Source: Dehalococcoidia bacterium
Lineage (GTDB): Bacteria > Chloroflexota > Dehalococcoidia > JAUSIH01
NCBI GenBank assembly: GCA_030648205.1
Contig: JAUSIH010000053.1
Location: 1-53,328, forward strand
Reading direction: 5' to 3'
DNA: 53,328 nt
Shown here piece after piece: positions 9,466-42,346 of the stretch. Within the stretch, counting starts at the first letter, position 1. Each line of letters opens with the position of its first letter. Below the pieces are notes generated by a model, which was given only the letters and a program-made list of their open reading frames with translations, did no database searches and had not been told where the DNA came from. Both the position numbers and the translations under genes were made by a program.

Positions 9466-9593
9466 CTCGCTCTTATCAAGAGTGGTGGAGGGACTGGCCC
9501 GCTGAAGCCCGGCAACCGGTCGGCGCGGCGCTCATACGCTGCACGATACGGTGCCAACTCCAACCCCGCTCGAGGGGGACAGATGAGAGCGAT
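9466..9593 (+). ncRNA. SAM-I (S-box) riboswitch aptamer
   Basis: The conserved S-box core is clear: CTCTTATCAAGAG, then GGTGGAGGGACTGGCCC (kink-turn region), GAAGCCCGGCAACC, GGTGCCAACTCC and finally GATGAGAG. Stem P1 forms from TCGCTCT (9467-9473) and AGAGCGA (9586-9592). The 3' strand of P1 lies in GATGAGAG, which occurs twice (9582-9589 and 9591-9598). Both copies are complementary to CTCTCATC (9617-9624) within the terminator hairpin, giving the alternative antiterminator. SAM binding would stabilise P1 and switch the operon off. Position before mtnA and upstream of metK and ahcY fits known S-box targets. Confidence 0.96.
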
Positions 9594-41237: not shown

Positions 41238-41299
41238 TTTTAATCTCTCGCCTTGCCGTTGTGGACAGTCCGTTCCCGCGACGAGAGAAGGAGGCAGCT

Positions 41300-42346
41300 A
41301 TGGCCAGCGTGGAGGAGGTCCGCCTCACCAGCCTGGCTCGATGCGCGGGCTGAGCCGCCAAATTCAGCCCGGAGGACCTGGTCGAGGTCCTGAAGCACCT
41401 GCCGCGAGTGAGCCACCCCAATCTGCTCATCGGCACGGCCACGTCCGACGACGCAGCCGTCTACAAGCTGACCGAGGAGATCGCCCTCGTCCAGACGGTG
41501 GACTTTTTCCCGCCCGTCGTGGATGACCCGTATGCCTTCGGGGCAATCGCCGTGGCCAACGCCCTGAGCGATGTGTACGCCAAGGGAGGCCAGCCGCTCA
41601 CGGCCCTGAACATCGTCTGCTTCCCGGTCAATCTCTCGAAGGACATACTGGGGCGCATTCTGCGGGGCGGCGCGGACAAGGCCGCCGAGGCGGGCCTGCT
41701 CATCGTGGGCGGCCACACGATTGACGACCCGGAGCCCAAGTACGGCCTGGCGGTCACGGGCCTCATCCGGCCCGGCCTGCAGGTGTCCAACGCGACGGCG
41801 CAGGCGGGCGACAAGCTCGTTCTGACGAAGCCGCTGGGCACGGGCATCATCACCACGGCCGGCAAGGGGGGCGTGGCGCCCAAGGCCGTGCTGGAACAGG
41901 CCATCAAGGTCATGTCCACGCTCAACAAGGCTGCGGCAGAGGCCATGATGAAGGTGGGCGTCCATGCCTGCACTGATGTCACCGGCTACGGACTCCTGGG
42001 CCATCTGCGCTGGATGGTGGAGGCCACGGGGCTGACCGCCCGCGTCTCGCTCTCGCAGACGCCGGTCATGGATGGCACGTGGGACCTGATAGCCAAGGGG
42101 ACAATCCCCGGAGGCACCATCCGCAACCTGAAGTCTCTGGAGAAGATCGTGCGGTGGGACGAAAAGGTGTCGCAGGACGGGCGGATCGTGCTGGCGGACG
42201 CCCAGACGTCGGGCGGGCTGCTGATGGCCACGCCTCCCGACAAGGTAGACCGCCTGCTGAAGGCGTTGCGCCAGTCGGGCGTGCAGGGCGCGATCATCGG
42301 CGAGTTCACCCGGGACCGCGGCCCGTCCATAGTCGTCGTGCCCTAG
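41300..42346 (+). CDS. selD: Selenide, water dikinase, itself a selenoprotein
   Basis: SelD makes selenophosphate from selenide and ATP, the donor for selenocysteine and selenouridine. Translation from ATG 41300 (AAGGAGG five bases upstream) gives MASVEEVRLTSLARCAG, then TGA at 41351-41353, then AAKFSPEDLVEVLKHLP, continuing without a break to SHPNLLIGTATSDDAAVYKL. The TGA falls exactly on the catalytic Cys/Sec of the family's CAGxxxK glycine-rich loop, so it should be read as selenocysteine (residue 18). A stem-loop with GGUC in its loop follows at 41363-41394. The rest has DDAAVY, ANALSDVYAKGG, VGGHTIDDPEPKYG and TDVTGYGLLGH. Without recoding the protein would lack its N-terminus. No selA, selB or selC lies in the window. 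Confidence 0.93.
41363..41394 (+). promoter_or_regulatory. Bacterial SECIS-like stem-loop in selD
   Basis: Ten bases after the in-frame TGA, TTCA (41363-41366) can pair with TGAA (41391-41394). Above an asymmetric bulge, GGACC (41374-41378) pairs with GGTCC (41386-41390). The seven-base loop TGGTCGA contains the G-U that SelB needs in known bacterial SECIS loops. The distance from UGA to the apical loop (about 26 bases) is slightly longer than in fdhF. Confidence 0.65.

Follow-up and report, generated by a model that had tools for sequence, protein, structure and literature searches.

Can the selD gene of this Dehalococcoidia bacterium be read through the TGA codon that lies within its frame, and what would such an organism use selenocysteine (Sec) for? 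The gene lies in a window of 53,328 nucleotides, by which we mean the whole stretch of DNA that was analysed, and the source genome is a draft assembly of 120 contigs (2.69 Mb, 95% complete). An earlier interpretation of the window from its letters alone, in the following the sequence-only reading, regarded the product as a selenoprotein, and the analyses described here support it in substance. With a probability of about 0.96, we regard the gene as the selD of an uncultured member of the Chloroflexota, predicted to encode a selenophosphate synthetase with a catalytic selenocysteine.

The selD reading frame and its UGA codon

The frame extends from the ATG at 41300 to the TAG ending at 42346 and contains a single in-frame TGA (Table 1). 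As the sequence-only reading had it, the frame opens behind a strong ribosome-binding site, AAGGAGG, at a distance of 5 nt from the ATG. Translation through the TGA gives a product that scores 372 bits in the SelD family TIGR00476 (cut-off 125), and in an alignment to E. coli SelD (3U0O) its U18 and K21 fall on Cys17 and Lys20. The UGA is thus found at the catalytic Cys/Sec codon, where it had been placed before, and is followed by the catalytic lysine.

Table 1. Coordinates of selD features in the window and of Sec machinery genes on other contigs (C1, C46, C102) of the same genome
Feature	Position	Strand	Details
selD, selenide water dikinase	41300..42346	+	348 aa, Sec = residue 18, stop TAG
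Shine-Dalgarno-like AAGGAGG	41288..41294	+	5 nt spacer to ATG; from sequence
In-frame UGA, predicted selenocysteine	41351..41353	+	position of E. coli Cys17; TGA conserved in relatives
Candidate bacterial SECIS hairpin	41373..41391	+	7-bp stem AGGACCU/AGGUCCU, loop GGUCG, 26 nt after UGA
Second hairpin CGGGCUGAG/UUCAGCCCG	41346..41371	+	41346-41354 paired with 41363-41371; UGA buried in stem
selB	C46:99387-101237		same genome as selD
selA	C1:29744-31084		564 bits vs cut-off 268
tRNA-Sec, anticodon UCA	C102:18137-18230		one clear copy in genome

Standard annotation would clip this gene: under translation table 11, the ORF starts at GTG 41408, which is the product to be expected if the UGA were a true stop and the cell made a truncated or inactive SelD. 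The 36 residues that this ORF lacks relative to the frame from 41300, a loss already pointed out from the sequence, include both the catalytic residue and Lys21 and show conservation throughout the class. Furthermore, a Shine-Dalgarno-like sequence was looked for upstream of GTG 41408 and none was seen, and every other component of the Sec pathway is encoded in the genome (see below), so that we give termination at the UGA very little credence. Mismatches to related selD genes amount to 0.39, 0.29 and 0.66 at the three codon positions before the UGA and to 0.33, 0.26 and 0.56 after it. As the upstream codons vary like the downstream ones, mostly at third positions, the stretch before the UGA appears to be under protein-level constraint.

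For a comparison across the class, we searched 40 relatives, one per family, and found a SelD with one in-frame TGA in nearly every SelD-bearing genome. Of 28 true SelD genes fetched from this class, each from a different family and the window's own included, 27 have TGA as the active-site codon, the one exception being L036 with TGC. Likewise, among SelD loci from many phyla in GTDB, the codon, which could be placed in 78 of the best 80, is TGA in 67, TGT in 8 and TGC in 3. These numbers also bear on the idea that the codon is really TGC or TGT and the TGA an error of sequencing or assembly. The draft state of the source genome and the existence of Cys-containing SelD in related lineages (L036; 11 of the 78 GTDB relatives) would be in keeping with such an error, but the recurrence of TGA at this very codon in 27 genomes of the class, the window's own among them, makes it even less credible than a true stop. 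Taken together, we consider it very unlikely that the TGA is an error or the gene truncated, and the conserved TGA in relatives, combined with a complete Sec machinery, constitutes strong evidence for reading the codon as Sec.

Hairpins around the selD UGA

The sequence-only reading had also described a stem-loop with GGUC in its loop behind the TGA. It is present and conforms to published rules for bacterial SECIS elements (PMC13188914), which ask for a loop of 3-9 nt, a stem of 4-16 bp, a G in the first two loop positions, a spacing of 16-37 nt and at most -7.5 kcal/mol: the hairpin has a 5-nt loop and 7 bp at 26 nt from the UGA and reaches -10.7 kcal/mol on its own, with about -13.7 kcal/mol for a 50-nt stretch containing it. 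As a structure alone, however, the fold of 41351-41400, which had been suggested as a check, is weak evidence (z = -0.09). Hairpins of no lower stability that conform to the rules follow 45 of the window's 1388 TGA trinucleotides (3.2%), so that we consider the hairpin at 41373-41391 supportive only. Its register does not covary above shuffles among 27 SelD genes (0.104 vs 0.094), and the proposed SECIS role thus finds no backing in covariation.

Covariation is seen in the 27 genes for a hairpin that lies six columns downstream of this one (0.270 vs 0.196 +/- 0.021 in shuffles), with changes on both sides in 6 of 8 pairs. In the alignment, most sister SelD genes use this hairpin, whereas 3 of its 8 pairs are broken in the selD of the window; we read this as a candidate SECIS register that may have shifted between sister lineages. 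An Rfam scan of the window returned no SECIS, and folding the 27 SelD regions to a consensus yielded no structure, the latter perhaps because sister genes use different hairpins, as the pair counts suggest. Lastly, a second hairpin would bury the UGA itself in its stem, and the 51-nt joint fold of this hairpin with the candidate SECIS hairpin is unusually stable (z = -3.98). By inspection, related pairing seems to be restricted to L012 and L013, the closest relatives.

Elsewhere in the window, a SAM riboswitch (RF00162, 77.9 bits) occupies 9470-9589, just 5' of a methylthioribose-1-phosphate isomerase-like gene, with SAH hydrolase-like and metK-like genes downstream.

The Sec machinery and its probable users

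A selenocysteine-containing SelD had been taken to imply a full selenocysteine system, and this is what the genome holds: selA, selB and a tRNA-Sec with anticodon UCA are all present (Table 1). These genes and selD are scattered, without a selAB operon that would include selD. Across the class sample, a full SelB is accompanied by a Sec-type SelD in nearly every genome. By analogy with the E. coli system, SelA would convert Ser-tRNA-Sec to Sec-tRNA-Sec with selenophosphate made by SelD, and SelB would bind a hairpin just 3' of the UGA and bring in the Sec-tRNA-Sec; SelD would consequently depend on its own product. As to the surroundings of the machinery genes, a UGSC-family gene (L184; C1:28988-29416, minus strand) lies right beside selA, another (L205; C102:16218-16571) about 1.6 kb from the tRNA-Sec gene, and the tRNA-Sec gene itself is preceded by a gene for a Cys-type thioredoxin (WCGPC).

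The proposal to look for other UGA-containing genes in the genome was borne out, if not for the enzymes named. Four molybdopterin oxidoreductases were found, none with a TGA, and we accordingly discarded the idea that formate dehydrogenase explains the Sec system. The selenouridine trait, for which no mnmH/ybbB was found in the genome, was likewise rejected as an explanation of SelD, and neither of the two AhpD-like (CMD) genes has a TGA. The TGA-containing genes instead encode a peroxiredoxin, with the codon at the position of the peroxidatic cysteine (FTGGU, in FTGGUTNE; L214:1845-2312), and members of the UGSC family.

A search with the UGSC-family profile NF041046 gave 45 matches in the genome. 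Forty-one of these are genes with exactly one TGA, which in all 41 encodes the U of the motif U-G-[S/G/A/V]-C (26 UGSCT, 8 UGGCT, 5 UGACT, 1 UGSCS and 1 UGVCT); in three further copies, full-length but without TGA, the motif is gone and no Cys takes its place, and one match is cut by a contig end. Most copies score below the strict NF041046 cut-off of 125 bits, and all five Sec copies tested against Pfam pass PF24696. The 41 copies are spread over 26 contigs and are at most 64% identical to their nearest paralog (median 51%), which marks them as old paralogs rather than strain duplicates.

Their UGA is followed by a hairpin, most commonly CGUGG-UGUAU-CCACG, which covaries well above controls: its value of 0.261 compares with 0.124 +/- 0.019 for shuffles and no more than 0.124 for slid controls, and at two of its pairs 12 and 5 sequences have swapped G-C for C-G. 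As only 10 of the 41 hairpins reach the strict -7.5 kcal/mol rule, it is the covariation and the exact position of the TGA that carry the argument. In-frame TGA codons in so many genes might also suggest that UGA is reassigned genome-wide to some other residue and not recoded to Sec. In all 41 genes, however, TGA stands in the one motif codon only, six of them appear to end at TGA, and tRNA-Sec(UCA), SelA and SelB are present; such a reassignment is hence about as implausible as the sequencing error discussed above. With recoding to Sec, the genome appears to hold at least 43 candidate selenoprotein genes, namely 41 UGSC genes, the peroxiredoxin and selD, a lower bound counted outside the Se-cofactor trait (YqeB/YqeC) and the SelW, thioredoxin and DsbA families. 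Comparative genomics points to the UGSC genes and the peroxiredoxin, all with TGA at the position of the motif, as the main users of the pathway.

The UGSC genes have a consistent companion. Of the short ones, 35 of 36 adjoin a same-strand ORF of one family of about 390 residues, and nine further UGSC-family genes are fused to this partner as a domain. The partner domain features an invariant MAGC motif and has no match in Pfam or NCBIfam and no convincing PDB entry; no convincing solved-structure homolog was found for the UGSC protein either. UGSC and partner might form a two-part selenoenzyme, in which Sec would attack a partner-held substrate in the manner of the GrdB/PrdB reductases. This is the most likely mechanism we can offer, yet a doubtful one, drawn by analogy. 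Classification of UGSC as a GrdB/PrdB reductase itself was rejected, as the similarity lies far below the family cut-offs (for one fusion against TIGR01917, E = 2.6e-4 and 20 bits vs 602). Other recurrent neighbours, recognised by eye, are ABC transporter solute-binding proteins and CoA-transferase-like proteins, which would fit a catabolic use.

Within the class sample, the UGSC copy number ranges from zero to very high. The relative G027, a draft genome of 5.0 Mb (96% complete, 7% contaminated), yielded 150 scored UGSC matches from 208 candidates, all but four with TGA (about 146), and in the 30 distinct loci examined, TGA stands at the motif in all 30. Both the contamination and the draft state of G027 call for caution, yet contamination of 7% is an unlikely cause of this number. 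We think it probable that some bacteria of the class Dehalococcoidia have turned UGSC and its neighbouring or fused partner into a large paralogous set of two-part selenoenzymes, with about 41 members here and about 146 in the relative.

Comparison with known systems

Among prokaryotic selenoprotein families, Sec-containing SelD ranks second in size. The SelD of the window is an already known form of the enzyme, and the interest lies in the UGSC expansion instead. It shares with the well-known Sec-containing SelD of bacteria (PMC1794560, PMC13188914) the family, the active-site Sec, the UGA, the dependence on SelA, SelB and tRNA-Sec and a candidate SECIS downstream; there is no difference of substance, and the SECIS position varies between sister genera of the class. 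The SelD proteins of E. coli (3U0O) and Aquifex (2YYE/2ZOD) belong to the same family by sequence, with Lys20 and the surrounding motifs kept, but E. coli SelD has Cys17 where the window's has Sec18.

The largest published bacterial selenoproteomes that we found comprise 57 and 63 genes (PMC13188914), and that of Desulfosediminicola flagellatus 46 (PMC12013277); the TGA-containing UGSC genes of G027 are more than twice as many as the largest of these. In reviews, the groups described as rich in selenoproteins are anaerobic Thermodesulfobacteriota, Synergistota and Clostridia, and no mention of Chloroflexota as such was found in those searched for it. If our reading is true, the UGSC expansion would represent the largest bacterial selenoproteome known, and Sec would serve as an everyday catalytic residue in a wide catabolic repertoire. 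At least 43 and about 146 candidate genes, nearly all of one family, would change the picture of selenoprotein-rich groups, and the recurrent partner gene would offer a practical way into the function of UGSC proteins.

To GrdB/PrdB, the selenoprotein B of glycine, betaine and proline reductases, UGSC bears a weak similarity around the Sec motif. The known UGSC selenoproteins (NF041046/PF24696; PMC2398784) share with the 41 genes described here the UGSC motif, the TGA at its U and the fusion to a second domain, reported in 2008 as an unknown conserved domain (PMC2398784). In the literature searched, we found no report of a consistent separate partner gene or of copy numbers of 41 or about 146. 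What sets the present genes apart is thus their number, with 41 copies carrying TGA in this genome and about 146 in the class relative, and the separate partner that stands beside 35 of the 36 short copies.
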